A DNA stretch of 64,000 nucleotides from Granulibacter bethesdensis (lineage in GTDB: Bacteria; Pseudomonadota; Alphaproteobacteria; Acetobacterales; Acetobacteraceae). The DNA is taken from contig NZ_CP018194.1 of NCBI RefSeq assembly GCF_001889545.1, forward strand, positions 842,501 to 906,500, read 5' to 3'. The position numbers and the translations under genes were made by a program. Shown piece after piece: positions 5,867 to 58,181 of this stretch (the first letter of the stretch is position 1; each line of letters opens with the position of its first letter). The notes below the pieces were generated by a model. The model was not told the DNA's origin and ran no database searches. It saw only the letters and a program-made list of their open reading frames with translations.

Positions 5867-6958
5867 TTATGCAGCTGCGGAAGCAGGCTCCTTGACGACG
5901 ATACGGGTCCATCCATGGGTGTCAGCCACGGTGCCATACTGGATACCAATGATGGTGTCATAGAGTCGCTGGGTCAGATCACCAATCTTTCCCCCATTGA
6001 TAATGATCTTCTGTCCGCGATAGCCAAGCTCTCCGATCGGAGAAATCACAGCGGCCGTGCCTGTCCCCCACATTTCGGCAAGATCGCCACGCTCTGCCGC
6101 TGCCATGACCTCATGGATGGAAATGGGGCGCTCATTGACCGTCATGCCCCATTCACGCATCAGGGTCAGGACAGAATCCCGCGTAACTCCGGCCAGGATT
6201 GTCCCGGAACTGAGGGGAGGGGTGATCACTTCATTTCCGATGCGCAGCATGATGTTCATTGTGCCGACTTCATCGAGATATTCACGATGAACGCCATCCA
6301 GCCACAGAACCTGCGTATACCCCTCGGCCTGGGCATCGCGGGCAGCCTGCAAGCTGGCTGCATAGTTTCCGGCTGTTTTGGCGGCACCCAGTCCCCCCTG
6401 GACGGCGCGGACATGCGTATCGGTGGCCAGAATTTTCACCGGGTTCAATCCCTCCGCATAATATGCGCCGACAGGGGAAAGAATAACGAAATAGATATAG
6501 CTATGAGAGGGATGCACCCCCAGGAACGTTTCTGATGCAATGACGGTCGGGCGAATGTAGAGAGAGGTTCCGGGCTTGCCGGGAACCCAAACCTGATCCA
6601 CCTGCACCAGCGCCGCGATTGACTCTTCAATCAGGGCCGGGTCCAGCTGGGGGATACACAGCTTTTCACAGGACTGGTTCAGGCGCTCGGCATGGCGGGA
6701 GGGCCTGAAAATACGAATGGCGCCATCTGCGCCCCGGAAGGCCTTCAGCCCATCGAAAACGGATTGGGCATAGTGCAGGACACAGCAGGCCGGATCGAAG
6801 GTGAACGGAGCGTACGGTACAATACGCGGGTCGTGCCAACCTTGCCCCTCATCATAGTTCATAATGAACATGTGGTCCGAGAACGTCCGACCGAAGCGTA
6901 AATCATCATCATGAGGACGCTGTTTCGGAGATGTCGTTCGTGTGACCGGAAAAGACAT
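5867..6958 (-). CDS. ilvE: Branched-chain amino acid aminotransferase
   Basis: This fold-type IV PLP enzyme exchanges the amino group between glutamate and the 2-oxo acids of Leu, Ile and Val, the last step of their synthesis and first of their breakdown. It is the longer class II type (363 residues), with the PLP-binding Lys194 in GAAKTAGNYA, YIRPTVIAS at about 134-142, and the C-terminal GTAAVISPIG region. Start ATG 6958 is supported by AGGAG ten bases upstream; an upstream in-frame start at 7018 would add 20 residues with no homology. It is a single gene, convergent with the two-component operon. Confidence 0.93.
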   Translation of the reverse strand: MSFPVTRTTSPKQRPHDDDLRFGRTFSDHMFIMNYDEGQGWHDPRIVPYAPFTFDPACCVLHYAQSVFDGLKAFRGADGAIRIFRPSRHAERLNQSCEKLCIPQLDPALIEESIAALVQVDQVWVPGKPGTSLYIRPTVIASETFLGVHPSHSYIYFVILSPVGAYYAEGLNPVKILATDTHVRAVQGGLGAAKTAGNYAASLQAARDAQAEGYTQVLWLDGVHREYLDEVGTMNIMLRIGNEVITPPLSSGTILAGVTRDSVLTLMREWGMTVNERPISIHEVMAAAERGDLAEMWGTGTAAVISPIGELGYRGQKIIINGGKIGDLTQRLYDTIIGIQYGTVADTHGWTRIVVKEPASAAA

Positions 6959-7393
6959 TAGCCGGAGACTCCTGGGCAGTAGGGCCGAATCAGCACGGTA
7001 GGCAGGTATAGCCGCCACCGATCAAGAAACCTCTCAGTACAACGACCAAGCGATCTGCCCCATATGTAAGGCGATGGTGCCGTGATGCACAGCTTAAATG
7101 TTCAGAGATAGCCGCCATGCTGCCGTGCAGCATTGGCGGGGCACTCAAGCATGATGAGTGGAAAAGCAAGACAAAAATGAAATCATCGGTTTTTATCGTT
7201 GATTGAAAATCATAATAAATGTTTCAATCAAAATAATAATAAACACAACTAAAGGTTGATTTATAGTTTTTAAAATAAATAATAAGTATATAAATTATAT
7301 TTGATTGAATATTTATTTATAAAAACAGGGAAATTGCTTGAAAGAAATCTATTTGATCGTCTAACAGAACGTTGGGAAGCGGAGGTTTATTCC
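6959..7393. promoter_or_regulatory. AT-rich intergenic region with TTGATTGAA repeats
   Basis: No gene is visible in these 435 bases. The ilvE-proximal half has normal composition and carries an imperfect hairpin (7111-7139; GCTGC-CGT-GCAGC core) without a T run. From about 7150 to 7390 the sequence is extremely AT-rich compared with the GC-rich surroundings. This part holds a perfect inverted repeat, TTGATTGAAA at 7199-7208 and TTTCAATCAA at 7222-7231, and a third copy of TTGATTGAA at 7311-7319. The spacing suggests a regulator-binding array controlling the RTX-like gene. A nucleoid-protein target (H-NS- or MucR-like silencing) is an alternative. Confidence 0.55.
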
Positions 7394-8749
7394 ATGTCCA
7401 GCGTTGTCACTGTTCCAGGTGCCAGTGGTACCGACGCCTATAATACAAACTTCACGATTAATTATTATTCCAACCTTGGGTTGCTTTCGAAGCAGCTTCT
7501 GGATAGCGTTCTGCCGCAGAATTATTCAGCCAATGCGCCGAATACTTCTATTAATCCGCTATCTTCGACAAATATGCCGTATAGTGTGGCTATCTTTGAG
7601 CCAGGCTCCAATGCAAGCGTCAGTATCCCGCAAGGATACGAGGTCTCAGTCCTTGCACCATTAGCAAGCGGAAGTGTCTCCAATACAGTTTATTTCAATC
7701 AGAATACTCTCGACAATCAGCTTATCTTCTTTGGGCAAGCAGGTAACTTTCTGCAGCTTGCACAAGGGTCTGGCACGGTTGTGGGGGCTCTGGGCGATAA
7801 TACAATCGCTGGTGGAACAACGGGTGCATGGTCTGTCATGACTGATGGCGCGGCCAGTACTTCCGGTACTCCTGGAAGTCTGGTTTTCGGCAACGGTTCT
7901 TCCATGCAGGTTTCCTCTCTGGGAACGGACACTTTTGTAGGCGGCACTGGAGCTGCGACCGTTGCAACCTATGGTAATGGTTCTGAAATCTGGGGTGGAC
8001 AAAGTGGTTCCTCCCTCAGCTTCACCAGCCATTCTGACGGTATTGATACGTATATGGGCGGTGCTGGCTCTGATACGGTATTTGCCGAAAGCAGCGGTGG
8101 TTTTTACCAGGGTGGGTCCGGTAACCTTACTTTCGTCAATGATACAGGTAGCCCCACCCTGTTTGGTGGTTCCGGTTCGGAAACGCTGTTTAGTGGCAGT
8201 GGTAATGGTCTCTATATGCAGGGCAGTGGTTCGTTCTCGCTCACCAATGGTGGCGGCACGCAACATGTCTTCGGTAGCTCTGTCAGCGGCGTTTACTATA
8301 GCGGTACAGGCGGTGAAATTGACGTTATCGGATCCAGCGCCAGCAATACCTTCTTTGCAGGCGCTGGTAATGTAACCCTGTCCAGCGCTTTCTCTTCCGG
8401 AGATAATCTGTTTGTAGGCGGAACAGGGCGTCAGTCGATCTTCGGCGGTTCCGGGAACGACACCTTCTTTGGTGGTGCTGGTACTTCCACGATCTTTGGC
8501 GGTGGTGGCCAGGATGTCTTTGCCGTGGTCAATGGTCAGGCTGGTGGAAACCTCAGCATCTATGGGTTCGAAGCGAACTCTGACCTGGCCATCCTCGGAT
8601 ACGGTCAGACCGCTCAGGATGTTCTCAATGCTGCTCAGTCCACCGTTGTCGGCGGGGCATCCAGCCTGCAGATTACCTTGTCTGACTCGACCACAATCAC
8701 GCTGGTCGGGGTTAATCAGCTGAACCAGAATCAGATCGCGACGACCTGA
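7394..8749 (+). CDS. RTX-like Gly-rich beta-roll protein, probably secreted
   Basis: The 451-residue product is rich in Gly, Ser and Thr and has no cysteine. After about 130 non-repetitive residues it consists of irregular repeats of the form GG-x-G-x-x-T-x-F/Y. Some match the Ca2+-binding RTX nonapeptide (GGAGSDTVF, GGSGNDTFFGGAG, GGGGQDVF); many have lost the Asp. The last 60 residues resemble the C-terminal end of RTX proteins that use type I secretion. No N-terminal signal peptide is seen, which fits that route. ATG 7394 has GGAGG eight bases upstream. Function is unknown; surface adhesin, biofilm or S-layer-like roles are possible. No type I secretion genes lie in the window. It is preceded by an unusually AT-rich control region. 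Confidence 0.75.
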   Translation: MSSVVTVPGASGTDAYNTNFTINYYSNLGLLSKQLLDSVLPQNYSANAPNTSINPLSSTNMPYSVAIFEPGSNASVSIPQGYEVSVLAPLASGSVSNTVYFNQNTLDNQLIFFGQAGNFLQLAQGSGTVVGALGDNTIAGGTTGAWSVMTDGAASTSGTPGSLVFGNGSSMQVSSLGTDTFVGGTGAATVATYGNGSEIWGGQSGSSLSFTSHSDGIDTYMGGAGSDTVFAESSGGFYQGGSGNLTFVNDTGSPTLFGGSGSETLFSGSGNGLYMQGSGSFSLTNGGGTQHVFGSSVSGVYYSGTGGEIDVIGSSASNTFFAGAGNVTLSSAFSSGDNLFVGGTGRQSIFGGSGNDTFFGGAGTSTIFGGGGQDVFAVVNGQAGGNLSIYGFEANSDLAILGYGQTAQDVLNAAQSTVVGGASSLQITLSDSTTITLVGVNQLNQNQIATT

Positions 8750-8764
8750 TTTTTGAAGATGCTG

Positions 8765-8801
8765 AAAAAAAGCCGCCAGAGAAATCTGGCGGCTTTTTTT
8801 T
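8765..8801. terminator. Bidirectional rho-independent terminator
   Basis: A perfect 10-base stem AGCCGCCAGA / TCTGGCGGCT with a GAAA tetraloop is preceded by a run of A and followed by seven T. It can therefore terminate both the RTX-like gene and the convergent membrane-protein gene that stops at 8816. Confidence 0.93.
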
Positions 8802-8815
8802 ATCAATGGGCCAAG

Positions 8816-10129
8816 CTATTTTTTCTGAAGCCACATATTCCATCCGGGCGGTCTTATCGGAAAGGAGATCACCTTACCCGGCGCCGCATTTTGAAAACGG
8901 GCAACACTGTCGGAAAAACCCGCGGGAGAAACGATCAGCATATCTGGATAACGCCAATCCAGGACAATACCGATCAGGCTTGTACTGAGCAGCAGCATGC
9001 CAACCAGACGGATCAACCGCTGTCTGGCTTGCAAGGCAACCACAAGAAGAGCCGCAAACCAGGCCAGAATCGGCATCATATAATATCTGCCTCCTATCCC
9101 CGGCCGGGCCAGTGCCTGCCACTGCGGTTCCACCTTTGCCGCCAGAGGGGATATTATCGCCACTGTCAGCATGAGAATGGCAAATGCCAGAAGCTTTCTG
9201 AAAGTGGGACTCCCTGCCTTGGCCGCGATTGCAAGCAAAAACAGGCCAGAGACTGTCACGATAAAGGGTAGCAGAGAGCTATCTGCCCACCATGCCTGTC
9301 TGGATATCCATACAGCCCCGTGAAAACCGGCAAGCCCACCAATAAAAATCTGCACCGAGACAATTTTGAAAAAACCGGAAATGGAAGCCCCGAGTGGTGC
9401 GGGGAGCGTGCGCGTATGGTGAAACACCATCAGGAACCCGAACTGGATCAGTGCGGATGCCCCTATGATGATGAGACGCCTTCGCGCCGCTGTGTCTTTT
9501 CTTTGCCACCGCTCATAAGCGGCAAATGGTGTCAGCAGGATTGAAAAGGGGCCGCTCAATCCTGCAATGGCCAGACAGCAGGATTCCACAAGGCCTCCGC
9601 TGGTCGTCACGGTGGGGGGGGCGATGACGATCAGAAAGCTCAGCAGTGCAAGATGCCATTGGGTGTTTGTGAGAATGACGAATTCCTCAAACCCGTAAGG
9701 CATCGTGATCAGGAAGCCGCCCAGCAGAAAGCGAATTCGCCAGTCAGGCACAAGCGGCGCAAAACGGGATGAGGCTACATATATTGCGGGGGCTGCCTGT
9801 ATCAGCAGAGCAATCACGGCAAAGAAAAACGGCACATTTCCCAGTGGCAGGGGTTGAGCCAGCAAGGCCCCAATCCGTGACGCGGTTTGCAGATAGCCTA
9901 CATGAGGCAGCAATAAGCTCGACCATCCGTACTGGTAAGCGTTCTGATACCAGATGCCATCTTCAGCCCACAAAGTGGCATGATGCAGACCAAGCGGATA
10001 ACGGACAGCCAGCGTCACCAAACAGCAGGCGGAAAATACAAGCCAATAAAACTGTTGGTGTTTCCACAGAATGGGAGAAAGGAAATCGGAGGAGGAATGC
10101 TGGTCCGTATGCTCAGGGGGCATTTGCAA
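8816..10129 (-). CDS. Polytopic membrane protein, possible GT-C-like glycosyltransferase
   Basis: The 437-residue protein is strongly hydrophobic, with roughly ten predicted membrane segments. The motif TLWAEDGIWYQNAY follows the first membrane helix. An acidic pair in the first external loop is a feature of GT-C glycosyltransferases that use lipid-linked sugar donors, which makes that class my best guess. I do not recognise the family with confidence. Its start overlaps the end of the acyltransferase gene by 17 bases, and both follow the giant methyltransferase/glycosyltransferase gene on the same strand. This points to a shared role in a surface glycan. A flippase or polymerase-like function is the alternative. 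Confidence 0.55.
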   Translation of the reverse strand: MQMPPEHTDQHSSSDFLSPILWKHQQFYWLVFSACCLVTLAVRYPLGLHHATLWAEDGIWYQNAYQYGWSSLLLPHVGYLQTASRIGALLAQPLPLGNVPFFFAVIALLIQAAPAIYVASSRFAPLVPDWRIRFLLGGFLITMPYGFEEFVILTNTQWHLALLSFLIVIAPPTVTTSGGLVESCCLAIAGLSGPFSILLTPFAAYERWQRKDTAARRRLIIIGASALIQFGFLMVFHHTRTLPAPLGASISGFFKIVSVQIFIGGLAGFHGAVWISRQAWWADSSLLPFIVTVSGLFLLAIAAKAGSPTFRKLLAFAILMLTVAIISPLAAKVEPQWQALARPGIGGRYYMMPILAWFAALLVVALQARQRLIRLVGMLLLSTSLIGIVLDWRYPDMLIVSPAGFSDSVARFQNAAPGKVISFPIRPPGWNMWLQKK

Positions 10130-43752: not shown

Positions 43753-44039
43753 TCGGCCCTCCTGCTGTTTCCGGTGTGGGGTATCCGGAAAACCCGAAAC
43801 CTGAAGCTACGGATCGCCGAGGGAAATGCCAGACCGGATGACGCGGGGCAGGCTTACGTCCGGATCGGGGCAGGGCAGGGTGGCGTGGGACGCGGGGATG
43901 GAGTTCATCACCGGCCTTATCTTCCGGGGTGACGGCGGCATTCTGTCATGATAGGGACAACCCGACCCTGCAGTGCCTGAGACGCGCGGAAGGGTTGAGT
44001 TTCACGCAAAGCGACCGTCTGGCACTGGAGCGGCCCGCG
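43753..44039. other. Divergent intergenic region before pabAB
   Basis: These 287 bases separate the phosphatase gene from pabAB and probably contain both promoters. In-frame codons extend pabAB upstream to 43929 but carry no family homology. I see no convincing gene or motif. Confidence 0.4.
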
Positions 44040-46106
44040 ATGAGGACGCTCATCGTCGATAATTACGACTCATTTACCCATAATATTCTCCATCTGTTTG
44101 CCCGTGTGACCGGGCAGGAACCCGTGATCGTACGCAACGATGCTGGCGCATGGGATGGTGCGCTGTGGCGTGATCTGCGCCAGCAGGGTTTCGATGCGGT
44201 GGTCATCGGGCCGGGGCCGGGCCATCCGGGCCGGGATGGTGATTTCGGCGTTTCCGCTGATGTGATCCGCAGCGGGGAATGGCCTCTGCTGGGTATCTGC
44301 CTGGGCCATCAGGGCATCGCCGCCCTTGCCGGGGCGCAGGTGGCAGCCGGGCCGGAGCCGGTGCATGGCAAAGTCTCGCTGGTTCATCATACAGGGAGTG
44401 GCCTGTTTGCCGGTCTGCCCAACCCGTTTCCGGTCGGGCGCTACCATTCTCTGGTTGCGCGCCGCCCGTTGCCGCAGGGGCTGGAGGAAACCGCCTGGAC
44501 AGATCAGGATCATCTGGTGATGGGGCTTGCCGCCCGCTCTGCGCCTGTCTGGGGCGTTCAGTTTCACCCTGAATCTATCCTGACCCCGGATGGGGAGAGG
44601 CTGATCGCGAATTTCAGGGATCTTGCGTTGGCGGCGCGGTCGTCTCGTCCGGTGTTTCAGCCGCCTGTGGCGGCGGGGCCGGAATGCGTGGCTTCTCCGG
44701 TACTGGACTCCAGCCATAACCGGCGCATCATCAGCCAGTGCCTGCCGGTAGAAATCGATACTGAGGCCGCATTTCTGACCTTGTTCGGTGCTGCCCCCCA
44801 TGCCTTCTGGCTTGACGGAGCCTTGAGCGAGCGCAGCCGTTCGCGCTGGTCCTATCTGGGGGAAGCAGAAAATGCGCTCACCTCCGATGCGTTCCATCAT
44901 CCCGATCATGCGGAGCATATTCTCTACACTCTGGCGCGTTCGGTTCCGGAGGGAACGGGAGGAACAGAGCCTCCGGTGCCATTCGGCGGCGGTTATGTCG
45001 GCTGGTTCGGTTATGAATTCGCGCAGGCAGTCGGAGGCCCGGTGCATCGTGCTTCTCCGACACCGGACGCGCTGCTGATGCGGGCGGAGCGGCTGATCGC
45101 GGTGGATCACCAGACTGGCCAGACCTGGCTGATCGCCCCTGCCGGAGAGGAGGACTGGATCGAACAAACCCGACAGGCTCTGGTGCAGTTGCCCACTCCG
45201 CCTCCGCCAGAGACAGGGGAGGCGTCTTCTGTTGTTTTCACGGCGGATCGCGGACGTGCCACTTATCTTGCGGATGTGGCGCAGTGTCTGGAATGGATCA
45301 GGCAGGGCGAGACCTATCAGGTCTGTCTGACCAATGAGATCAGCTGCCAGCTTCAGCTTGATCCGCTGACCCTGTATCGGATCGTGCGGCGGCAGAATGC
45401 GGCCCCTTATGCGGCCTATCTGAAATGGCCCGGTGGCGCGGTGCTCAGTGCTTCCCCCGAGCGGTTTCTGCAAGTGGACCGTCATGGTGGCGTCGAGACC
45501 AAACCGATCAAGGGAACGGCACCCCGCGGCACCAACCCGGCCCATGATGCGGCGCTGGCCGAGGCATTGCGTGACAATGTGAAGGAACGCGCTGAAAACA
45601 CCATGATCGTGGATTTGCTGCGCAACGACCTTTCCCGCGTCTGTCTGCCGGGCAGTGTGACGGTACCGGCGCTGTGCGCGATCGAGACTTATGCCACGGT
45701 GCATCAACTGGTCAGTACGGTGCGGGGACGTCTGCGACCGGGAGAAGGGATTGCCGGGCTGATCCGGGCGACTTTCCCCGGCGGGTCGATGACCGGTTGT
45801 CCGAAACATCGCACGCTCGACCTGATCGACCGTCTGGAGCAACGTCCGCGCGGGATTTACTCCGGTGCCCTGGGGTGGATCGGCGATGACGGAGCGGCTG
45901 ATCTCAGCATCGTCATCCGTACCATCGTGATGCAGGGGGATCATCTGTCTATTGGCGTGGGGGGCGGGATCGTCGCGCAATCCGTGCCGGCGCGGGAATA
46001 TGCGGAGATGTTGCTGAAGGCGCAGGCCCCGATGCGGGCCATCGTCACTGCTGCAACCGGCGGGTGGAGCGAGGAACGCTGTATTCTGGAAGAGCGCATG
46101 CCATGA
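44040..46106 (+). CDS. pabB: Aminodeoxychorismate synthase, fused PabA-PabB
   Basis: This 688-residue fusion makes 4-amino-4-deoxychorismate from chorismate and glutamine. Residues 1-195 are the glutamine amidotransferase with Cys87 in LLGICLGHQGIAAL and the His-x-Glu in VQFHPESI. Residues about 230-685 are the chorismate-binding part (ETYQVCLTNEIS, FPGGSMTGCPKHRTLDLIDR). The motif PIKGT, with Lys, marks PabB rather than anthranilate synthase, which has PIAGT. ATG 44040 has GGAG upstream. Its stop overlaps the pabC start as ATGA. p-Aminobenzoate is needed for folate and is also the substrate of MptG, so its position leading the H4MPT genes is meaningful. Confidence 0.93.
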   Translation: MRTLIVDNYDSFTHNILHLFARVTGQEPVIVRNDAGAWDGALWRDLRQQGFDAVVIGPGPGHPGRDGDFGVSADVIRSGEWPLLGICLGHQGIAALAGAQVAAGPEPVHGKVSLVHHTGSGLFAGLPNPFPVGRYHSLVARRPLPQGLEETAWTDQDHLVMGLAARSAPVWGVQFHPESILTPDGERLIANFRDLALAARSSRPVFQPPVAAGPECVASPVLDSSHNRRIISQCLPVEIDTEAAFLTLFGAAPHAFWLDGALSERSRSRWSYLGEAENALTSDAFHHPDHAEHILYTLARSVPEGTGGTEPPVPFGGGYVGWFGYEFAQAVGGPVHRASPTPDALLMRAERLIAVDHQTGQTWLIAPAGEEDWIEQTRQALVQLPTPPPPETGEASSVVFTADRGRATYLADVAQCLEWIRQGETYQVCLTNEISCQLQLDPLTLYRIVRRQNAAPYAAYLKWPGGAVLSASPERFLQVDRHGGVETKPIKGTAPRGTNPAHDAALAEALRDNVKERAENTMIVDLLRNDLSRVCLPGSVTVPALCAIETYATVHQLVSTVRGRLRPGEGIAGLIRATFPGGSMTGCPKHRTLDLIDRLEQRPRGIYSGALGWIGDDGAADLSIVIRTIVMQGDHLSIGVGGGIVAQSVPAREYAEMLLKAQAPMRAIVTAATGGWSEERCILEERMP

Positions 46107-46942
46107 CACAGCCCGTCTGCTGGATCAACGGGCAGGTTCTGCCACTCTCCGAAGCCAGACTTTCGCCGATGGATCGTGGCGCGATGCTGGGCGATGGCGT
46201 GTTCGAGACCATTCTGATGAGGCATGGACGTCTGATCTGGGCCGGCGATCACCTGCGCCGCCTGAGGGAAGGGGCGCAGGTGCTGTCCATCCCGGTGCCG
46301 ATGGAGGAGAAGGTGATGCGCTCCGGTCTGATCGCTCTGGCCGGAGCAGCCGGGCTGACAGATGCCGCGTTGCGTCTGACTCTGACACGGGGCGAGGCCG
46401 CAAAGCGTGGCATCTGGCCGCCGGGGGAGCCGGTTCGTCCGGTTCTCTATGCCACCATTGCCGCCAAAGCTGCTGATACGCTTGTGCTGCCCTCCGTCCG
46501 GGTGGCGGTGTGTGCCACAACCCGGCGTAACGCTGATTCACCGCTCTCCCGCATCAAATCGCTTGCATATGGTGATGCCATTCTGGCCCGGCAGGAAGCG
46601 GAGCGTCGGGGCGCTCAGGATGCCGTGCTGCTGAATACCAGAGGAGACGTGGCCTGTGCTTCGGCCGGGAACGTGTTCATCGGGCTTGCGAATGGCGCAT
46701 GGGTCACGCCCGCGCTGGAATGCGGAATCCTTCCCGGTCTGACTCGCGCCCGTTTGATCCCGCTGCTGAAAGCACGGGAGGAAATCGTGTCCGTGGAGAC
46801 GCTTCGCCATGCGTCCCGGCTGCTGATCGTGAACAGTCTGGGATGCACGATGGCGGCCTCCATAATGGATGGAAACGGTGAAAGCCTCTTGGCGACGGAG
46901 CTTCCCTTCGATACGGACCTCCTTTACCGATGCATGAATTGA
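46103..46942 (+). CDS. pabC: Class IV aminotransferase, likely aminodeoxychorismate lyase
   Basis: The 279-residue fold-type IV PLP enzyme has WINGQVLPLSEARLSPMDRG at the N-terminus and the PLP Lys in SRIKSLAYGDAILAR, followed by ACASAGNVFI. Coupling to pabAB by ATGA argues for PabC, which splits aminodeoxychorismate into p-aminobenzoate and pyruvate. D-amino acid or branched-chain aminotransferase activity cannot be excluded from sequence. It is 13 bases from the MfnB-FolB gene. Since no separate MfnC-type aminotransferase is seen, an extra role in methylofuran synthesis is conceivable but unsupported. Confidence 0.82.
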   Translation: MTQPVCWINGQVLPLSEARLSPMDRGAMLGDGVFETILMRHGRLIWAGDHLRRLREGAQVLSIPVPMEEKVMRSGLIALAGAAGLTDAALRLTLTRGEAAKRGIWPPGEPVRPVLYATIAAKAADTLVLPSVRVAVCATTRRNADSPLSRIKSLAYGDAILARQEAERRGAQDAVLLNTRGDVACASAGNVFIGLANGAWVTPALECGILPGLTRARLIPLLKAREEIVSVETLRHASRLLIVNSLGCTMAASIMDGNGESLLATELPFDTDLLYRCMN

Positions 46943-46955
46943 GCGGGAGGCGCGG

Positions 46956-48134
46956 ATGACACGCATGCTGACCAGCGTCACCGGGCCAGAAGAGGCGGAA
47001 ATCGCGCTTGCCGGCGGTGCTGATATTATCGATCTGAAAGACCCGTCCTTCGGGGCGCTGGGTGCTGTTGCGCCGGAGGTGGTGCGGCGTACGGTCGATG
47101 CCGTGGCACGTTGGGATGCTGCGCATAACCATTCTGGTCACAAGGTCAGCGCCGTGACCGGCGATCTGCCGATGGATCCGGCCCTGATCGTTCAGGCTGT
47201 TGAAGCCATGGTGGAGACGGGTGTTCACTATGTCAAAATCGGCTTTTTCGAGGGCGATGCCCGGAAGGTGCTGGACGCGCTGCTTCCTCTCTCCAGCCGT
47301 GTGAGGCTGGTCGCGGTGCTGTTTGCTGACCGGAAGCCCGATCTGGCCATTCTGCCCGCCCTGAAAGACGCCGGTTTTTATGGCGCAATGCTCGATACCG
47401 CCGATAAGGGCGCGGGGGGCTTGCTCGGCCATATGAAGGCGCCGGCCTTGCTGGATTTCACCCGTGCCTGCCGCCGGCTCGGGCTGGAGCCGGGGCTGGC
47501 CGGATCGCTGGAAGAACCGGATGTGCCACGCCTGCTGCTGTTGGCCCCTGCTTTTCTCGGTTTCCGCCGGGCCTTGACGGAGGGCGTGCGCGCCGGTGCG
47601 GTGACGCTGGAGCGTGTGCGTACGGTGCGGGCGCTGATCCCGCGCGTGGCCGAGCCGAATGGGGCCGGAGTGGTCGATTACCGCGTGCTGGCGACCCGTG
47701 GTTACACGCCTGATCCACAAGGGGACATGTCGCTGGCGGATCGTATTTTCGTGCGCGATCTGGTGCTGCCGGTGCGGATTGGTACCTATGAGCGGGAGCG
47801 GGAGAAACCGCAGAAAGTCCGCTTCACAGTGGAGGTTCTGGTGGCGCATCCGCGTTACCAGACCGACGATATGCAGAATGTGTTTTCTTATGACGTCATC
47901 ACCGATGGCATCGCCATGCTGGTGGAGCACGGCCATGTCGGGCTGGTGGAAACGCTGGCCGAGCGTATCGCTGCTTTCGTGATTGTGCACCCGCGTGTGA
48001 TGAAGGCTACCGTCACGGTCGAAAAACTGGAAGTCGGGACCGGCATCGTTGGCGTGACCATTGAGCGCACGCGTGAAACCGCTTACAGCGCCGCGGCTGA
48101 TACGCTGTTCGCCTATGGTGGTGCCGCCGGATGA
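46956..48134 (+). CDS. MfnB-FolB fusion: furan phosphate synthase plus dihydroneopterin aldolase domain
   Basis: The 392-residue protein has two complete parts. Residues 1 to about 235 match MfnB (DUF556), which makes the furan phosphate precursor of methanofuran from two glyceraldehyde 3-phosphates; the two catalytic lysines are likely Lys28 in IIDLKDPSFGALG and Lys151 in DTADKGAGGLLGH. Residues about 260-380 match FolB-type dihydroneopterin aldolase (RIFVRDLVLPVRIGTYERE; VTVEKLEVGTGIVGVTIERT). FolB yields 6-hydroxymethyl-dihydropterin, used for folate and possibly H4MPT here. GGGAGG precedes ATG 46956, and its end overlaps mfnE by ATGA. I know these as separate proteins; the fusion links furan and pterin cofactor synthesis. 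Confidence 0.88.
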   Translation: MTRMLTSVTGPEEAEIALAGGADIIDLKDPSFGALGAVAPEVVRRTVDAVARWDAAHNHSGHKVSAVTGDLPMDPALIVQAVEAMVETGVHYVKIGFFEGDARKVLDALLPLSSRVRLVAVLFADRKPDLAILPALKDAGFYGAMLDTADKGAGGLLGHMKAPALLDFTRACRRLGLEPGLAGSLEEPDVPRLLLLAPAFLGFRRALTEGVRAGAVTLERVRTVRALIPRVAEPNGAGVVDYRVLATRGYTPDPQGDMSLADRIFVRDLVLPVRIGTYEREREKPQKVRFTVEVLVAHPRYQTDDMQNVFSYDVITDGIAMLVEHGHVGLVETLAERIAAFVIVHPRVMKATVTVEKLEVGTGIVGVTIERTRETAYSAAADTLFAYGGAAG

Positions 48135-48712
48135 CGCTGGTCGTCAAATTCGGCGGCAGCCATGCGGATACGCCTTTGCTACGGGACTGGTTGCTGGCGA
48201 TTGGCCGTGGTGCCGGGCGGATTGTGCTGGTGCCCGGGGGTGGGCCTTTTGCGGATACTGTGCGGGTGATGCAACCTGTGATCGGCTTCCACGATGCGGC
48301 GGCGCATGAAATGGCGCTGCTGGCGATGGCCCAGTTCGGTCTTGCCCTGTGTGGCACCGAGGCCGGGCGTGAAGCCCGCCTTGTTCCGGCGGCTTCCGTG
48401 GCGGAGATTGAAACGGCGCTTGGTGATGCTCTGGTGCCAGTCTGGATGCCGTTGGCGATGTTGCGGGGCGCTCCGGATATTGAGGAAACATGGGATGTGA
48501 CCTCGGACAGTCTTGCCATCTGGCTGGCAAACCGGCTGGGGGCGGAGGCGGCGCTGATTATCAAGCGGGATTCAGCCGGGAGCGTGGATGCCGCTTTTCA
48601 GGCCATGCGGGCGCGCTACCAGGGGCGGGTGCTGATCGCCGGGCCGGAGGATATTCCCGTATCCGGACTGGATGCAGCCCATCCGCCGGGACATGAAAGG
48701 GTCGTGGTATGA
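48131..48712 (+). CDS. Amino acid kinase family protein, MfnE-like
   Basis: The 193-residue protein begins VVKFGGSHADTPLL, has VLVPGGGPFADTVR, and near the end ALIIKRDSAGSVD, the nucleotide-binding pattern of the amino acid kinase superfamily. In methanogens the family member MfnE phosphorylates the aminomethylfuran phosphate to a diphosphate. Position between the mfnB fusion and other cofactor genes, with ATGA overlaps at both ends, supports that role. It is shorter than most carbamate or aspartate kinases. Role inferred from family and context. Confidence 0.8.
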   Translation: MTLVVKFGGSHADTPLLRDWLLAIGRGAGRIVLVPGGGPFADTVRVMQPVIGFHDAAAHEMALLAMAQFGLALCGTEAGREARLVPAASVAEIETALGDALVPVWMPLAMLRGAPDIEETWDVTSDSLAIWLANRLGAEAALIIKRDSAGSVDAAFQAMRARYQGRVLIAGPEDIPVSGLDAAHPPGHERVVV

Positions 48713-49305
48713 GCGGATCGCTCAAGGAAGAAATGGACGCGTTAGCCGAGGAAAGCCGCCATATCGTCAAACCGCGCTGGGGTTGGGCCCTGACCGGATC
48801 GGGGCATTACTTCACCGAATGTCTGGATTTGATCCGCAGTCTGGATCATGTCGATCTGTTCGTCAGCAAAGCGGCGGCGGAAGTGGTCAGGATGTACCAC
48901 AAGGATCTGAAACTGCCGGATAATATCCGCATTTTCCGTGATACGACTGCCAGTGCGGCGCCGGTCGGTAATTTCTATTTCGGCGTTTATCACACGCTGG
49001 TCGTCGCGCCGGCAACATCCAATACGGTTGCAAAATGCGTGGTTGGAATCTCGGATAATCTGGCCACCAACGTGTTTGCGCAGGCCGGAAAATGCCGTGT
49101 GCCAACCATCGTGTTTGCCTGTGATACCGCACCGGAAATGGATACGGAGGCTCCGTCCGGCATGGTGAAAGTCTATCCGCGGCGGATCGATCTTCAGAAC
49201 ACCGAGCGTTTGCGTGATTTCGAAGCGACAACCGTTGTCGAAACATATGAGGATTTGCAGGCCGCGATTGACGGTCGCCGCAGCGCGTTCGCTCAAGCCC
49301 GGTAA
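48709..49305 (+). CDS. HFCD-type flavoprotein, dihydromethanopterin reductase-like
   Basis: The 198-residue protein has the flavoprotein fold: ALTGSGHYFTECLDLI near the N-terminus, LVVAPATSNTVAKCVVGI (the P-A-T-x-N-T-x-A-K flavin-binding motif) and VPTIVFACDTAP. Archaeal homologues include AfpA-like proteins and DmrB, which reduces dihydromethanopterin to H4MPT. In this operon DmrB-like activity is the best guess, replacing the NAD(P)H-dependent DmrA of Methylorubrum. A decarboxylase of the same fold is the alternative. ATGA overlap joins it to mfnE. Confidence 0.75.
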   Translation: MSGSLKEEMDALAEESRHIVKPRWGWALTGSGHYFTECLDLIRSLDHVDLFVSKAAAEVVRMYHKDLKLPDNIRIFRDTTASAAPVGNFYFGVYHTLVVAPATSNTVAKCVVGISDNLATNVFAQAGKCRVPTIVFACDTAPEMDTEAPSGMVKVYPRRIDLQNTERLRDFEATTVVETYEDLQAAIDGRRSAFAQAR

Positions 49306-49314
49306 ATCAGCGCC

Positions 49315-50793
49315 ATGGCCGATGCCTCTGCTGAACACATCGTTTTTCTGACCGGCCATCTGGCAGAAACCAGACTGCGCGATGTACTGCAAGGATTGGG
49401 ACAGACCTCCTTTACCTGGGAGGTGGCCAATGTCGGCGTGAAGGTTGCGGCGTTGATGACCGGAGCCATCGTGCAGCGCCGTCTGAAAACACCGGTGAAG
49501 GCAGATCGGGTTATCTTCCCTGGTCGGGCCGGGATTGATCCGGATGAAATGCAGGCCCATTTCGGGGTGCGTTTCGAACGCGGGCCGGAGGAGTTGGCCG
49601 ATCTTCCGCGTTTCCTGGGGCGGAAAGGTGGTGCTCCTGATTTATCAAAGCATGATCTGAGAATTTTCGCAGAGATCGTCACAGCGATTGATCTTTCCCC
49701 CGATGCGATTGTCGAGCGTGCGCGCTGGCTTGCCGCGGATGGGGCGGATGTCATTGATGTCGGCTGCAAGCCGGGCCGTCATTTTGCGCATCTGGAAGAT
49801 CAGATCCGTGCCTTGAAACAGGCTGGTTTCAAGGTCAGCGTGGATAGTGGCGATCCGGAGGAATTGCGGCGTGGCGCGTTGGCGGGAGCGGATTTTCTGC
49901 TGAGTCTGAATGAAGATACGCTCGATGTGGTCGATGGCACGGCGGCGGTGCCGGTGCTGCTGTCCAAACCACATGGCGATCTGGACAGTCTGGTGCGGGC
50001 GGCCAGAAAAGCGGATGCCAAGGGCATCGACTATATGCTTGATCCGGTGCTCGATCCGATCAATTTCGGCTTTACAGAATCGCTGATGCGCTATGTGCGG
50101 ATCAGGGAAATGCTGCCGGAAGCTGAAATCATGATGGGCACTGGCAATCTGACCGAGCTGACCGATGCCGATACATCCGGCATCACGGCCACTCTGGTCG
50201 GTATCTGCACCGAACTGCGTATCCGCAATGTGCTGATCGTGCATGTCAGTCCGCATACGCGTCGCACGGTGGCGGAACATGATGTCGCGCGCCGTATGAT
50301 GTTCGCAGCCCGTGCCCATGCGGAGCTGCCACGCAATTATACCAGTGCGCTGCTGCATGTTCATGATCGTTGGCCTTATGCGCAGTCATCGGAAGACATT
50401 GCCGGTCTTGCCAGCGAAATACGCGATTCCAATTTTCGGATTGCCGTGGCGGAAGACGGTATTCACGTTTTTAACGGCTCACTGCATCAGGTTTCAGACA
50501 CGGCCTTTCCGTTCTTCCCGCATCTGGGGGTGGAGCAGGACGGGGCGCATGGATTTTATCTCGGTGCGGAATTGATGAAGGCGGAAATCGCCTATGCTTT
50601 AGGCAAACGCTATACGCAGGACGAGCCACTGGATTGGGGCTGCGCCGTGCGTCCGGGGGCAGCGACGGATCGCACCCGTCTTGCGGATGCCGGGCATACG
50701 CTGAAATCGAAGCAGGAGCGGGAAGAGAGAAAACGTGCATCCGACACGACACCAGATGCCTCTCCGCCGACCGCGCAGGATGACACTCCATGA
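49315..50793 (+). CDS. Dihydropteroate synthase-like DUF6513 protein
   Basis: This 492-residue protein is part of the conserved set of unknown genes in bacterial H4MPT clusters. The central part (about 115-330) resembles a dihydropteroate synthase barrel (ADVIDVGCKPGRHF, FKVSVDSGDPEELR, MLDPVLDPINFGF, MMGTGNLTELTDAD). Flanking regions are specific to the family. Dihydropteroate synthase-like proteins could join the pterin to the MptG product, the step that needs a special enzyme in H4MPT synthesis; this is inference. Nine bases separate it from the flavoprotein gene, and its stop overlaps the DUF447 start by ATGA. Confidence 0.78.
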   Translation: MADASAEHIVFLTGHLAETRLRDVLQGLGQTSFTWEVANVGVKVAALMTGAIVQRRLKTPVKADRVIFPGRAGIDPDEMQAHFGVRFERGPEELADLPRFLGRKGGAPDLSKHDLRIFAEIVTAIDLSPDAIVERARWLAADGADVIDVGCKPGRHFAHLEDQIRALKQAGFKVSVDSGDPEELRRGALAGADFLLSLNEDTLDVVDGTAAVPVLLSKPHGDLDSLVRAARKADAKGIDYMLDPVLDPINFGFTESLMRYVRIREMLPEAEIMMGTGNLTELTDADTSGITATLVGICTELRIRNVLIVHVSPHTRRTVAEHDVARRMMFAARAHAELPRNYTSALLHVHDRWPYAQSSEDIAGLASEIRDSNFRIAVAEDGIHVFNGSLHQVSDTAFPFFPHLGVEQDGAHGFYLGAELMKAEIAYALGKRYTQDEPLDWGCAVRPGAATDRTRLADAGHTLKSKQEREERKRASDTTPDASPPTAQDDTP

Positions 50794-51383
50794 TTCGTGA
50801 AACGATTGTGACGACTCTGTCAGCGGATGGCGTGCCGCATCTGGCTCCGCTCGGGCTGATCCGTGATGGCAATGACTGGATCGTGGCGCCGTTTCATCCA
50901 TCCACGACACTTGCCAATCTGCGCGCGCGGGGACAGGCAACGGCCAGCCATACCGATGATGTGCGTGTTTTCGCAGGCTGTCTCACCGGCCGACGGGATT
51001 GGCAACTGGCGCCGTCCGTCTCTGTCGCACCGCCCCGTCTCGCATCGGCTCTGGCTCATGAGGAGTTGGAGGTGATCGCGGTGGAGGAGGACGATCTGCG
51101 CCCCCGTTTTCGCTGCCGCGTGAAGACGGTGCAAACGCATGCGCCGTTTCTGGGCTTCAACCGTGCTCAGTCCGCGGTGATCGAGGCTGCCATTCTCGCC
51201 AGTCGCCTGCATATGCTGCCAGCGGACAAGGTGAGGGCGGAGGTCGATTACCTCACCATCGCCATCATCAAGACCGCTGGCCCGAGGGAGCAGGAAGCAT
51301 GGGAATGGCTGCTGGAGAAAATACGCGTCGTTCACCCGGACATCGGCGTCTCCAAACCCGCTGTCAGTTTGCGGGACAACTGA
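50790..51383 (+). CDS. DUF447 family protein
   Basis: The 197-residue protein matches DUF447, a family found in methanogens and H4MPT-using bacteria and related to flavin-binding split-barrel proteins. Visible features are the N-terminal beta-strand VTTLSADGVPHLAPLGLI and the central NRAQSAVIEAAILASRLHML. Biochemical role is not known to me. It ends the plus-strand operon from pabAB and its 3' end overlaps the convergent lprI-like gene by 20 bases. A partner for the DmrB-like flavoprotein is one possibility. Confidence 0.75.
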   Translation: MIRETIVTTLSADGVPHLAPLGLIRDGNDWIVAPFHPSTTLANLRARGQATASHTDDVRVFAGCLTGRRDWQLAPSVSVAPPRLASALAHEELEVIAVEEDDLRPRFRCRVKTVQTHAPFLGFNRAQSAVIEAAILASRLHMLPADKVRAEVDYLTIAIIKTAGPREQEAWEWLLEKIRVVHPDIGVSKPAVSLRDN

Positions 51384-51765
51384 GATCCCAGCTCTGGCAT
51401 TTCAATTGTGCAGCCAGATCGTGATTGCGGCTGTCCGTCAGGGTCTGGAGGCATTGCGCATTGATCATCGGCCAGATGCTGCCTCCCTGATCGGGGCCTC
51501 CACCAGTGCGGAACAAGCATTCCCGGTCGCGATATGCAATCCACGCTCTTTGCGCTGCTCGCAGCCTTTGCTGACTGTCCGGATCGATTTTTTTCAGAAG
51601 CTGCTGATACAGCGTATTCATCGTCCTGTCTGCGCTGGAAGCCGCTTGTGCAGCGCATTGAGAAAGCTGCATCTGGTTGCCATCGGTGCAGTCCGCGGCA
51701 AAACCTGGCCGGCAGAACACAACAAGCAGGCCCGTCAGGCAACTGGCGAGAAGGATGGTGCGCAT
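51364..51765 (-). CDS. LprI-like (DUF1311) periplasmic protein
   Basis: The 133-residue protein has a signal peptide (about 1-23, ending PGFAADC) and a mature domain with the family pattern of conserved Cys (DCTDGNQMQLSQCAAQ, RECLFRTGG, AQCLQTLTDSR, KCQSW) and the RLRAAQRAWIAYRDREC motif. Family members include the lysozyme inhibitor LprI of mycobacteria; most are unstudied. It lies between two H4MPT operon ends with no evident link to C1 metabolism. It starts 27 bases after the mfnF stop and may be cotranscribed. Confidence 0.85.
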   Translation of the reverse strand: MRTILLASCLTGLLVVFCRPGFAADCTDGNQMQLSQCAAQAASSADRTMNTLYQQLLKKIDPDSQQRLRAAQRAWIAYRDRECLFRTGGGPDQGGSIWPMINAQCLQTLTDSRNHDLAAQLKCQSWDLSCPAN

Positions 51766-52790: not shown

Positions 52791-52861
52791 GTTGCTCTCC
52801 ATCATGTCTGGGTATTCATATCCCGTGTGTGCATCGACAGAAATTCCTTTATAATCGGGGT

Positions 52862-53557
52862 GTGGACATTATACCCGTCATTGATCTGAAGCAGGGACAG
52901 GTGGTGCATGCCCGGCACGGCCAGCGCGACCTGTACCGGCCTATCCAGACCCCACTTTGCGCGGGCAGCGCGCCGCGAGATGTGGTGGCTGGGCTGCTGA
53001 AGCTGCACCCGTTCCGCTCTCTTTATATTGCTGATCTCGATGCAATCGAGGGTCAGGGCAGTGCTGCCCCGATCCTGCGGGCGCTGCGACAGGATTTTCC
53101 GGATCTCGATGTCTGGGTTGATGCCGGCATGCGGGCTGAGGATGCGCGCGACTGGCTGGATCGTCATACGCATGACCGTCTGGTGCTGGGCAGTGAGTCG
53201 CAGAATGATGCGGAAGCCATGTTGTCCCTGACCGGAGAGTCGCGTGTCTGCCTGTCGCTGGATTTCAGGGGGGATACGTTTCAGGGACCGCACCTGTTGT
53301 GGGAAGATGTGGCTTTCTGGCCGACCAGACTGGTTGCCATGACCTTGGCGCGGGTTGGATCGGAAACGGGGCCGGATTTGAGCCGTGTGGAAGGGATCGT
53401 GGCGCGTGCGGGCCGTGCGCGGCGGGTCTATGCAGCGGGCGGAGTACGCAATATCGCCGATCTGGAGCGGCTGAAACAGGCTGGGGCCAGCGGGGTACTG
53501 GTTGCAACTGCCTTGCATGGCGGAACCATCACGAAGGATGATCTGCGAGGTTTCTGA
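52862..53557 (+). CDS. HisA-like barrel protein of H4MPT clusters
   Basis: The roughly 231-residue TIM barrel is related to the phosphoribosylformimino-carboxamide isomerase HisA (start DIIPVIDLKQGQVVHA; LYIADLDAIEG; DVWVDAGMR; YAAGGVRNIADL; GVLVATALHGG). No other histidine gene is nearby, and HisA-like proteins recur in methanogens and bacterial H4MPT clusters. A role in cofactor synthesis, acting on a phosphosugar-type intermediate, is possible but untested. I chose GTG 52862, which puts the barrel strand at the N-terminus; GTG 52829 adds 11 residues. It is divergent from mfnF and convergent with fae. Confidence 0.75.
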   Translation: MDIIPVIDLKQGQVVHARHGQRDLYRPIQTPLCAGSAPRDVVAGLLKLHPFRSLYIADLDAIEGQGSAAPILRALRQDFPDLDVWVDAGMRAEDARDWLDRHTHDRLVLGSESQNDAEAMLSLTGESRVCLSLDFRGDTFQGPHLLWEDVAFWPTRLVAMTLARVGSETGPDLSRVEGIVARAGRARRVYAAGGVRNIADLERLKQAGASGVLVATALHGGTITKDDLRGF

Positions 53558-53637: not shown

Positions 53638-54147
53638 TTAGTTGGCGGCGAACGGATGCTTCACGCTCTTGTACTGAGAGACGACCTCAGAGGCCTTCGG
53701 CTCACCGCGAACGGCGCGGACGAGGGCTTCCTTGGTGGCCTTGTAGTTGTATTCCTGGATCTTCTTGTCGTCTTCGGCCAGCCAGTGGATGAAGACGCCA
53801 ACGGAGATGAACAGGTCATCGGCTTCGGCTTCCGGGATGATGCCTTCGGCAACGGCTTCGGCAACTGCCAGAGCCACGCCGTGCTGGGCCGGGCCGAACA
53901 TCTGGACGGCCTGCTTGGCGCCCTTGATGGTGACCTTGTTGAACAGGATTGTGTTCGGCTTCACCATCAGGTTCGGGGCAACCACCGCGAGCAGGGTGGA
54001 GAAGCCGTCCTTGTTGTTGGTGAGGGCGTTGGCAAACGCGGTTTCGGCAGCGCTGCCGCGCGGGCCAATGATCAGGTCGATGTGAGCGACTTCGTTACCG
54101 TCGCCAACCAGTGACTCGCCAACCAGGGTCTTCGTGATGACCGCCAT
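53638..54147 (-). CDS. fae: Formaldehyde-activating enzyme
   Basis: Fae catalyses condensation of formaldehyde with H4MPT to methylene-H4MPT in the cytoplasm, the entry step of the pathway. The 169-residue protein is close to the Methylorubrum form along its length: [16 protein letters not shown] with the catalytic His22, [49 protein letters not shown] and a C-terminal KHPFAAN. GGAGG lies nine bases before ATG 54147. A 121-base gap separates it from the CitG-like stop, so it may have its own promoter as well. Confidence 0.97.
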
Positions 54148-56052: not shown

Positions 56053-57024
56053 TCAGTTGAAGGATGCGTCCAGCAGGGCCTGATCGCGCTTGCCGGCGCG
56101 GAAGGTCTCGCCGGTCTCGATGGCCGTCACCAGCACTTCCGCCGGGCTGAACAGGGACGGATCGATTTTGTAGAAATCGCCTTTCACCGCTGCGAAGATA
56201 TCCTTGAACGGCTTGCCGTAATCGCGGGAGGTCGAGGCAGGCAGCTGTTCGGCCAGCTTGCGGGCTTCCTCGGCGGAGCCTTTGACGAACAGATGCACCC
56301 GGCCCGCGAAGATGATGGCGTCGTTGGTGCGGCCCATGGCGGTCACGAAATCCGGGTGCGGTGGCGGCAGCGGGGCGGAGGCAATGCCGTCCACGACGTT
56401 TTCCAGCGGGAAATGCAGCTCATGCGTCTTGTGCAGGGCGACTTCCAGCACGCGTCCCACCACCTGCACGGATCCGGCCAGGCTCTGGGTCGGGGCATAG
56501 ATGATGCCGAGATTTTCCGGGACGACGCGGCATTCCCGCGCCACGCGCTCGACAATGGCGGCCGGCGGCGGTTTGGCGGCTTCCAGCACCAGCACGGCAT
56601 GGGTGCTTTCATCGCGGTAGGTCAATTCCTCGAACAGCTTTTCACCCCGTGCCAGCGCACGGGCCGGGCCGGAGCCGAGCGCGAAGAAGGAGCCGTTCTC
56701 GTCCTTATGGTGCAGGCTCCAGCCTGCATACTGGCTGGCAAGGCAGGAGGTGACCGGGTTGGAGGACGCGACGGAGACGCTGAACGGCCAGTTCTCCAGA
56801 GTCTGATCCGGCAGCAGCGTGACGGTGCCGAGACCGCCCATGCAGATGCGGGCCAGTTGCAGGCCGGCGGCGATGCTGCCCGGCACGGCAGAGCCGGCGT
56901 CAATCAGCGTCTCGCCCAGAGAACCGGTGGACACGCCGATTTTCAGTTCCTCGGCATTGTTGATCATGTCCTGCAGCAAGGCCCATGCGCGGGCATTGAC
57001 GCTGACGGGGGAAGCGTTGCTCAT
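56053..57024 (-). CDS. mch: Methenyl-H4MPT cyclohydrolase
   Basis: Mch hydrolyses methenyl-H4MPT to 5-formyl-H4MPT, the step between MtdB and the Fhc complex. The 323-residue product has the family segments VNARAWALLQDMINNAEEL, GSAVPGSIAAGLQLARICMG, SSNPVTSCLASQYAGW, SGPARALARGEKLFEEL and DAAIFAGRVHLFVKG-like (NDAIIFAGRVHLFV). ATG 57024 overlaps the stop of the upstream ATP-grasp gene by ATGA; the frame continues to 57156 but that part overlaps the neighbour. Confidence 0.95.
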   Translation of the reverse strand: MSNASPVSVNARAWALLQDMINNAEELKIGVSTGSLGETLIDAGSAVPGSIAAGLQLARICMGGLGTVTLLPDQTLENWPFSVSVASSNPVTSCLASQYAGWSLHHKDENGSFFALGSGPARALARGEKLFEELTYRDESTHAVLVLEAAKPPPAAIVERVARECRVVPENLGIIYAPTQSLAGSVQVVGRVLEVALHKTHELHFPLENVVDGIASAPLPPPHPDFVTAMGRTNDAIIFAGRVHLFVKGSAEEARKLAEQLPASTSRDYGKPFKDIFAAVKGDFYKIDPSLFSPAEVLVTAIETGETFRAGKRDQALLDASFN

Positions 57025-58181
57025 GATGACGTCTCCAGGCGCTGAAGAATCTCGTTTGTGCGATCCTCTGCCAGTGCTTTGGCGGAGGTGGCATCTGCCG
57101 CTTCGGTCAGGACCGTGCAGACAGGCGCGCCGCGTGGAATAAGGGTATGCGTCCACGAGCGATCCGCCGTCCAGTCCGGCCAGACAAAATCCTCGGGAAT
57201 TTTGATCGGATGCGGGGCATAGACCACCGCACAGGCCCTTGATCCGGCCATCGGAGCGAGCGGAATGACTGGCTCGACCGGCTCCGCGACCGCCTCACCA
57301 CTTGTCTGCAGGTGCAGGGTAATGAGTGGCTGCTCCGGAAACACGTCCAGCGTGGCTCCGGGGCGGGGATTGATTTCCAGCAGGTGAAAACCGTCCTCCT
57401 GAACCAGAAAGTCCAGACTCCCCAGCCCGACCAGGCCACTGGCCCGCGTCAGATCGAGCGCCGCGTGCTGGAGAGCAGGAGAGAGGAGGCCATTCTCCCG
57501 TTCCGTCAGACGTGCAGCGCCGCCGAAACGGAACGGTGTACAGGGAGAGGGTGCGGTCCATTGCCGGCTCCACCCGATCAGCAGAGGCGTCTGCAAGGGA
57601 CGCCCCAGCACCAGAGCCGAGATGGATATGCCCTCGATGCGTTGCTGGTAGTAGCGACCGGGCTTTGCAGAGCCGGGGCCGCGCACCGGGTGGATATGGC
57701 TGCCGCCGGAACCACCGATTCGCCTGGTCAGCCAGGGCTGGTCGACAAATGCTTCTCGCGGTGGCGGAGACAGGCTGATGGCAGGGAATGGAATGGCGCA
57801 TTCCCGGCATAGAGTGGCCAGAAAAAGCGGATTTTTCAGATCCGTGATGCGGTGGGGAGGCGTCCCCTGCAAGGCATGGTGCTTTTGCAAACGCGCCAGA
57901 ATGTCGGTCTGATCCTCGAACCCGCTTCCCCAGATCAGTGGAGGGCGCTTTCCGGCACAAAGTGTATTGAGCACGCAATGCAGTGTCTGCGCATCGATAC
58001 CGTGATCCGGACGGCAAGGGAGCAAGCTGTGCCGTTCGGCAAGAGCGATGGTGTCGCTGTCACCGAACAGATCGCACACCAGCGGCACAAATCCCTCCCG
58101 CCGGGCGGCAGAGGCGAGCGCGCGCCCGGACAGGGCGACAATCAGAATGGGACTGCCCGGCTTTACTGCTTCTGCCGCCAT
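57021..58181 (-). CDS. ATP-grasp protein, MfnD-like ligase
   Basis: The 386-residue protein shows a pre-ATP-grasp fold (ILIVALSGRALASAARREG), WLTRRIGGSGGSHI as the glycine-rich loop and FLVQEDGFHLLEINPRPGA as the metal-binding end. The methanogen MfnD is an ATP-grasp ligase joining glutamate to tyramine; bacterial methylofuran carries tyrosine instead, so a tyrosine-glutamate ligase is my inference. The name is by class and context. It overlaps mch by four bases and follows mtdB by 36 bases. Confidence 0.75.
   Translation of the reverse strand: MAAEAVKPGSPILIVALSGRALASAARREGFVPLVCDLFGDSDTIALAERHSLLPCRPDHGIDAQTLHCVLNTLCAGKRPPLIWGSGFEDQTDILARLQKHHALQGTPPHRITDLKNPLFLATLCRECAIPFPAISLSPPPREAFVDQPWLTRRIGGSGGSHIHPVRGPGSAKPGRYYQQRIEGISISALVLGRPLQTPLLIGWSRQWTAPSPCTPFRFGGAARLTERENGLLSPALQHAALDLTRASGLVGLGSLDFLVQEDGFHLLEINPRPGATLDVFPEQPLITLHLQTSGEAVAEPVEPVIPLAPMAGSRACAVVYAPHPIKIPEDFVWPDWTADRSWTHTLIPRGAPVCTVLTEAADATSAKALAEDRTNEILQRLETSS

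Follow-up and report, generated by a model that had tools for sequence, protein, structure and literature searches.

The DNA analysed here, referred to as the window, is a stretch of 64,000 nucleotides from Granulibacter bethesdensis (contig NZ_CP018194.1, positions 842,501 to 906,500, forward strand). On its plus strand, a single ATG-started open reading frame of 392 amino acids (46956..48134) encodes a fusion of MfnB (4-HFC-P synthase) with FolB (dihydroneopterin aldolase). Specifically, residues 4-224 (46965..47627) match Pfam family PF04476 (E 4.1e-61, 207.1 bits against a cut-off of 22.4) and residues 264-369 (47745..48062) match PF02152 (E 5.8e-21, 75.5 bits against a cut-off of 31.8), in agreement with an earlier note on this DNA, which had read an intact MfnB-like domain and a full FolB domain in one 392-residue frame. 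The FolB half also passes the folB domain model TIGR00526 (61.6 bits against 45.05) and misses the folB equivalog cut-off of TIGR00525 (50.8 bits against 72.15); the MfnB half misses the NCBIfam equivalog cut-off of NF002576 (244.2 bits against 297) and scores lower still with NF002575 and NF002573.

Both lysines that the earlier note expected of an MfnB are in place. In particular, an alignment to structure 4rc1, with its 7-residue tag offset allowed for, sets K28 (plus-strand codon 47037-47039) and K151 (47406-47408) opposite K27 and K155 of MJ1099, and the active-site set of the fusion reads D26, K28, D147 and K151, with K94 in addition; in MJ1099 numbering, we take D25, D151 and K85 to be active-site positions. 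Two glutamates have catalytic roles in FolB, and by alignment the FolB half carries both within the catalytic set E281, Y312, E332 and K357; mutants of the tyrosine and of the lysine are named in the titles of matching PDB entries. According to the accessible part of PMC6604932, MfnB uses glyceraldehyde 3-phosphate, its essential residues are two lysines and two aspartates, and Lys27 forms a Schiff base, and Lys155 is given as essential in the accessible part of PMC11365854. The AlphaFold2 model of the fusion (mean pLDDT 85.8) finds its best structural match in 4rc1_C, that is MJ1099 (TM-score 0.84 by target length), and the solved FolB chains both match the model and align by sequence with the FolB half. 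The inter-domain linker (residues 225-263; 47628..47744, plus strand), delimited by alignments and model, falls below pLDDT 50 at residues 232-255; in alignments of fusions it is conserved around residues 241-250, with D241, L245 and R248 nearly invariant. Both domains are intact, and the protein is likely a bifunctional enzyme. Its C-terminal half is like FolB (PF02152), usually a free-standing protein, in domain, E-Y-E-K set and fold, and its N-terminal half is like the known MfnB (MJ1099, PF04476; Orf22 of Methylorubrum) in domain, D-K-K-D-K set, fold and the presence of an MfnE gene nearby, whereas archaeal MJ1099 is a single domain (chain 242) that lacks the FolB domain added here. Orf22 is named an MfnB homologue in PMC8141765, in the accessible text of which the word FolB is absent.

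The fusion gene is embedded in an H4MPT island. Upstream, on the same strand, are an open reading frame for a fused protein that we name PabA-PabB-like (43929..46106) and, directly before the fusion, a class IV aminotransferase gene, aminodeoxychorismate lyase-like (PabC; 46064..46942). Downstream, the gene for an MfnE-like kinase (AA_kinase; 48131..48712), whose start overlaps the fusion stop by 4 bases, is followed by those for a flavoprotein (AfpA/dihydromethanopterin reductase-like; 48709..49305), a dihydropteroate synthase-like protein (DUF6513/TIGR00284; 49315..50793), a DUF447 protein (50790..51383) and a HisA/HisF-like protein (Orf17-like; 52829..53557), all on the plus strand and, like the aminotransferase, identified by profile matches. 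The minus strand carries the genes of the formaldehyde-activating enzyme (Fae; 53638..54147), with 66-69% identity to the annotated fae of loci L204 and L205, and of methenyl-H4MPT cyclohydrolase (Mch; 56053..57156), matched by PF02289 at G000:898559-899503. A small secreted-looking ORF, presumably DUF1311-like, lies on the minus strand inside the island (51364-51765), between the DUF447 and hydantoinase-like genes. Matches to the PabA-PabB-like and PabC-like genes of the window occur in the available flanks of 2 of 80 loci, namely the best 80 of 515 relatives.

The earlier note had reckoned with a sequencing error that joins two genes. Sequencing error, frameshift and chance are all excluded as the source of the fusion by open frames in relatives: two congeners (97% and 96% identity) and genome G014 (58%) have the frame uninterrupted, and a single ORF spans the two domains at 85 of 85 further loci (the best 80 of the 515 relatives on GTDB contigs and 5 plasmid records). 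Internal stops in the G014 fusion were considered and rejected, since its ORF of 410 amino acids is open and the reported stop must be the terminal one. Long open frames ahead of standalone FolB in several family members were likewise considered as further fusions; on inspection they were judged to be a neighbouring gene read out of frame, a start codon lying close to FolB, and these FolB were counted as standalone.

A search for the domain pair across genomes, as proposed in the earlier note, started from the PF04476 profile and covered four sampled sets, with 5 matches among 60 relatives, 17 among 395 genomes of the order, 20 among 385 of the class and 20 among 398 of the phylum. Pooled, the four samples hold MfnB in 53 different genomes, and inspection of the ORFs finds the fusion in 25 of these, a count that includes G393 (FolB remnant only) and G468 (split over two contigs). 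All 18 MfnB carriers sampled in the window's family, the Acetobacteraceae, have the fusion, most members of this family being without MfnB, as do 7 of 32 MfnB genomes from other Alphaproteobacteria and none of 3 outside the class. The earlier note knew the two families as separate proteins; the pair is not an unusual one. A scan of GTDB contigs with the single protein as query gave 56 pattern stretches and no relatives; with an alignment of 16 fusions it gave 515 relatives in 553 stretches, the best 80 of which are all fusions, from the genera Rhodopila, Mesorhizobium, Phyllobacterium, Pseudaminobacter, Methylocapsa, Jiella, Aurantimonas and others. Of 67 matching records in a plasmid collection, 13 contain at least 80% of the fusion protein. 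Among the best 80, 77 loci have at least 900 nt downstream, and 76 of these show MfnE directly after the fusion; in 15 of the best 80 the ORF continues through MfnE, producing a triple fusion MfnB-FolB-MfnE that occurs also in G884, where Pfam confirms the three domains. The fusion is common in Alphaproteobacteria, and neither an artefact nor unique.

The fusion would have arisen by the joining of adjacent island genes, in the order mfnB-folB-mfnE. Genome G1110 has separate genes in the same order, mfnB-folB-mfnE-flavoprotein-DHPS-like-DUF447. FolB was sought in 15 of the 28 unfused MfnB genomes and is present in 14 of the 15, and in 8 of these 14 it lies within 25 kb of mfnB (G457, G679, G712, G855, G859, G1000, G1002 and G1110). 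In a FolB tree of 81 rows and only 122 columns, the 40 fused rows group with the FolB of G1110 and G057 (42 rows), a set supported by 89/83 only, and a separate group (20 rows, 100/97) unites the standalone folB genes from 18 family members without MfnB with the second FolB that G356 and G136 each have; within the family, the fused and the standalone FolB lineages lie apart. G393, with its truncated FolB, and the near-copy G002 were left out of this tree and of the terminal-branch test described below. Among the unfused genomes, G513 (L051) has an MfnB though neither Mch nor Ftr was found; in G043 (L035; 1.4 Mb) MfnB is present and no FolB match was found.

We consider it quite probable that the fusion is a bifunctional protein of methylofuran and pterin synthesis which would ensure joint supply without channelling, would be needed for folate as well and, after loss of the module, would carry a dead MfnB as a passenger. 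The N-terminal half would combine two molecules of glyceraldehyde 3-phosphate into the methylofuran precursor, a furan phosphate, and the C-terminal half would cleave 7,8-dihydroneopterin to 6-hydroxymethyl-dihydropterin, the FolB product being the pterin intermediate common to folate and methanopterin synthesis. As FolB and the furan-forming enzyme share one chain, the two enzymes needed by the formaldehyde-oxidation module would be present in equal amounts, and its two cofactors could be made in step; the link of methylofuran supply with pterin supply drawn in the earlier note is borne out. No intermediate would be handed from one half to the other. The same note had entertained the channelling of a shared C3 aldehyde and, indeed, two aldolase-type enzymes on one chain invite the idea of substrate channelling or shared-aldehyde coupling, but FolB releases glycolaldehyde, a C2 aldehyde, whereas MfnB takes the C3 units of glyceraldehyde 3-phosphate, and the linker between them is of low model confidence (pLDDT below 50). 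Moreover, the FolB residues are complete in 5 of the 6 genomes whose MfnB residues are lost, which argues that FolB is independent of the MfnB reaction. Such coupling is accordingly highly improbable.

The bearing of the fusion on folate follows from the rest of the genome. In the window's genome (G000, 99.98% complete) the one PF02152 match is the fused FolB, accompanied by FolK and a FolP-type match, and no second PF02152 match turns up in 21 of the 25 fusion genomes, this one among them; the search finds two FolB in G136, G356, G393 and G884. Since most carriers have no FolB besides the fused one, folate too would depend on the fusion gene. Each of the 9 tested genomes has a single FolK, and PF00809 matches occur in all 9, with a strong, free-standing, FolP-size frame (E <1e-70) in 7 (G000, G057, G136, G161, G356, G406 and G946). 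No strong FolP-type match was found in G001 and G393, where, apart from the island's weak PF00809 match in G001, the only match lies inside a frame of more than 1100 amino acids, presumably MetH; G001 is without a strong match, yet its close relative G000 has one. FolB can be bypassed by PTPS, the third type of which (PTPS-III) has a motif with Glu. A homologue search of genome G161 returned no PTPS; G000 has one homologue, with Ser at the position of the PTPS-III Glu, and G406 and G946 have two each, which may be of a type able to bypass FolB. The fused FolB is very probably the folate supplier in G000 and G161 and likely so in the other carriers, for which the case is less complete.

A FolB half specialised for methanopterin, with folate coming from another route, would fit the separation of the fused lineage from the family's standalone folB in the tree, the score below the TIGR00525 equivalog cut-off and the PTPS homologues of G406 and G946, which might provide a bypass. 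This alternative is very unlikely given that 21 of 25 fusion genomes have no other PF02152 match, that G161, G406 and G946 keep a sole FolB with a complete catalytic set without Mch and Ftr, and that G161 has no PTPS. The earlier note's assignment of FolB to the H4MPT module is upheld as regards the pterin link and not as regards a role in methanopterin only: this is the sole FolB of the genome, beside FolK and FolP, and the FolB half is intact in most fusion genomes without Mch and Ftr.

Mch and Ftr are both undetected in 7 of the 25 fusion genomes (G136, G161, G356, G393, G402, G406 and G946). K28 is lost in 6 of these 7 and kept in 18 of 18 fusion genomes that have both enzymes, as it is in 28 of 28 unfused MfnB. 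The lysine is replaced by I in G136, by T in G161, G406 and G946, by Q in G356 and by a gap in G393, and K151 is lost too in G136, G393 and G406; the E-Y-E-K set of FolB is complete in 5 of the 6, the exception being G393. K28 loss goes with Mch/Ftr absence at a Fisher p of 4e-5 with kinship ignored, and at least 3 separate losses fall on supported branches; a kinship-aware independent-pair test, with G393 left out, has only 3 supported pairs and a median p of 0.25. The seventh genome, G402, retains K28 although neither Mch nor Ftr was detected; it is 87% complete, and the fusion lies on a short contig with an intact piece of the island. A search for 17 other window genes in the flanking DNA of the six K28-less fusions found none of them; these flanks extend about 9-10 kb on each side, except for G406 (3.2 kb before, about 0.9 kb after) and G356 (about 0.8 kb after). 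Among the 85 further loci (the best 80 of 515 and 5 plasmid records), 82 keep the whole set and L169, L204 and L205 are without K28. L169 (Rhodopila globiformis DSM 161) is the G356 form, with an identical FolB and the same residue string. L204:10001-11101 and L205:10001-11113 are decayed copies beside fae on two Phyllobacterium plasmids, with K28 changed to P, a gap at K151 and MfnB Pfam scores of 65 and 73 against 214 in an intact copy, the FolB scores being 64 and 62 against 65. As T1293 carries an intact island on another plasmid besides its decayed copy, decay there follows duplication, not loss.

An orphan fusion with all catalytic residues (L203:6001-7122) has no other island gene within about 6 kb on either side and, like G402, counts against the preferred reading. 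Beside the decayed fusion of G161 (L209, about 6000-9000), YVTN beta-propeller and ABC-protein genes were read by eye; similar genes flank the fusion in Phyllobacterium (L206 and L207), so that the G161 relic seems to sit at an old island site. In G057, which has no PF04476 match, a FolB is fused to a degenerate MfnE kinase (L216:9181-10110; MfnE match E 2.4e-10 against local background) 38 bases upstream of folP, itself followed by a gene that we take to be glmM-like. This FolB-MfnE is likely an island relic inside a folate gene cluster, a mirror image of the decayed fusions.

On the preferred reading, once the module has gone the MfnB half would be a catalytically dead passenger on a retained FolB. 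It might instead serve FolB as a structural or regulatory scaffold, a pseudoenzyme in the decayed lineages, and the evolutionary rates of the two halves bear on this choice. Within genus g73, pairs of a decayed and an intact fusion share 50-65% identity in MfnB and 76-88% in FolB, and intact pairs 76-90% and 82-95%, respectively. The median terminal branch ratio MfnB/FolB is 5.1 in 7 decayed rows against 1.7 in 30 intact ones (p 0.009), in a test of 47 rows from which 10 of 40 intact rows with both branches at or below 0.03 were dropped; the outliers are the intact L142 (17.7) and L170 (8.9) and the decayed G946, which is low at 1.16. This acceleration speaks for a passenger and against a scaffold, whereas the decayed halves still being in frame, with 6 of 6 above the PF04476 cut-off, and their pairwise dN/dS below 1 (0.19-0.54) are what a scaffold would predict. 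An open frame is nonetheless expected in any case, because a frameshift would kill the downstream FolB, and erosion affects both halves in G393, a genome with another FolB. On dN/dS values that rest on partly saturated dS, decayed MfnB halves against intact kin give 0.22-0.54 (one pair undefined) and intact pairs 0.10-0.17; the two Phyllobacterium relics (0.19 for MfnB, 0.013 for FolB) add little, since intact Phyllobacterium-type pairs likewise give 0.17 and 0.03. Decayed MfnB evolves faster, yet not neutrally, and it may have a structural role; a scaffold in place of a mere passenger is, on the whole, unlikely.

A broader reading, which we put forward tentatively and with some doubt, is that a methylotrophy island, being mobile, arrives with a FolB that replaces the one of the host, which makes part of the island essential for folate; that the fusion next ties MfnB to this essential enzyme; and that, as the island erodes, the dead MfnB is left behind, possibly as a scaffold. 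If true, the fused FolB would serve as a lock-in device and, at the same time, as a fossil marker of a methylotrophy that has been lost. In many alphaproteobacteria, a gene that RefSeq labels otherwise would account for the FolB step of folate synthesis, and a 'methylofuran' gene is predicted to be essential for folate. The K28-less forms would act as natural knock-outs that separate the two predicted activities, and a dead MfnB on an intact FolB would serve as a sequence marker for lineages in which H4MPT-dependent formaldehyde oxidation has been lost.

No account of an MfnB-FolB fusion was found in the open-access literature, the scope of the search. Specifically, it is not described in the accessible parts of PMC8141765, PMC9088363, PMC3615186, PMC6193120, PMC5041015, PMC3621897, PMC11365854 and PMC6604932. 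As the architecture is visible in databases, the fusion may be known to annotators. RefSeq entries for the same fused protein bear a name that covers one half only, that of one decayed copy being 'dihydroneopterin aldolase'. The same RefSeq name is given at L206:11167-11802 and L207:11170-11805, on two Phyllobacterium plasmids, to the MfnE-like kinase, in which Pfam finds only AA_kinase. In the accessible part of PMC9088363, a Burkholderia island is listed with one gene for MfnB and another for a dihydroneopterin aldolase; the latter label needs checking in the light of this mislabelling. FolB is likewise joined to enzymes of cofactor synthesis in the eukaryotic FolB-FolK-FolP fusion, as the accessible part of PMC4224340 describes it, but that protein joins consecutive steps of one pathway, whereas MfnB-FolB joins steps in the synthesis of two cofactors.
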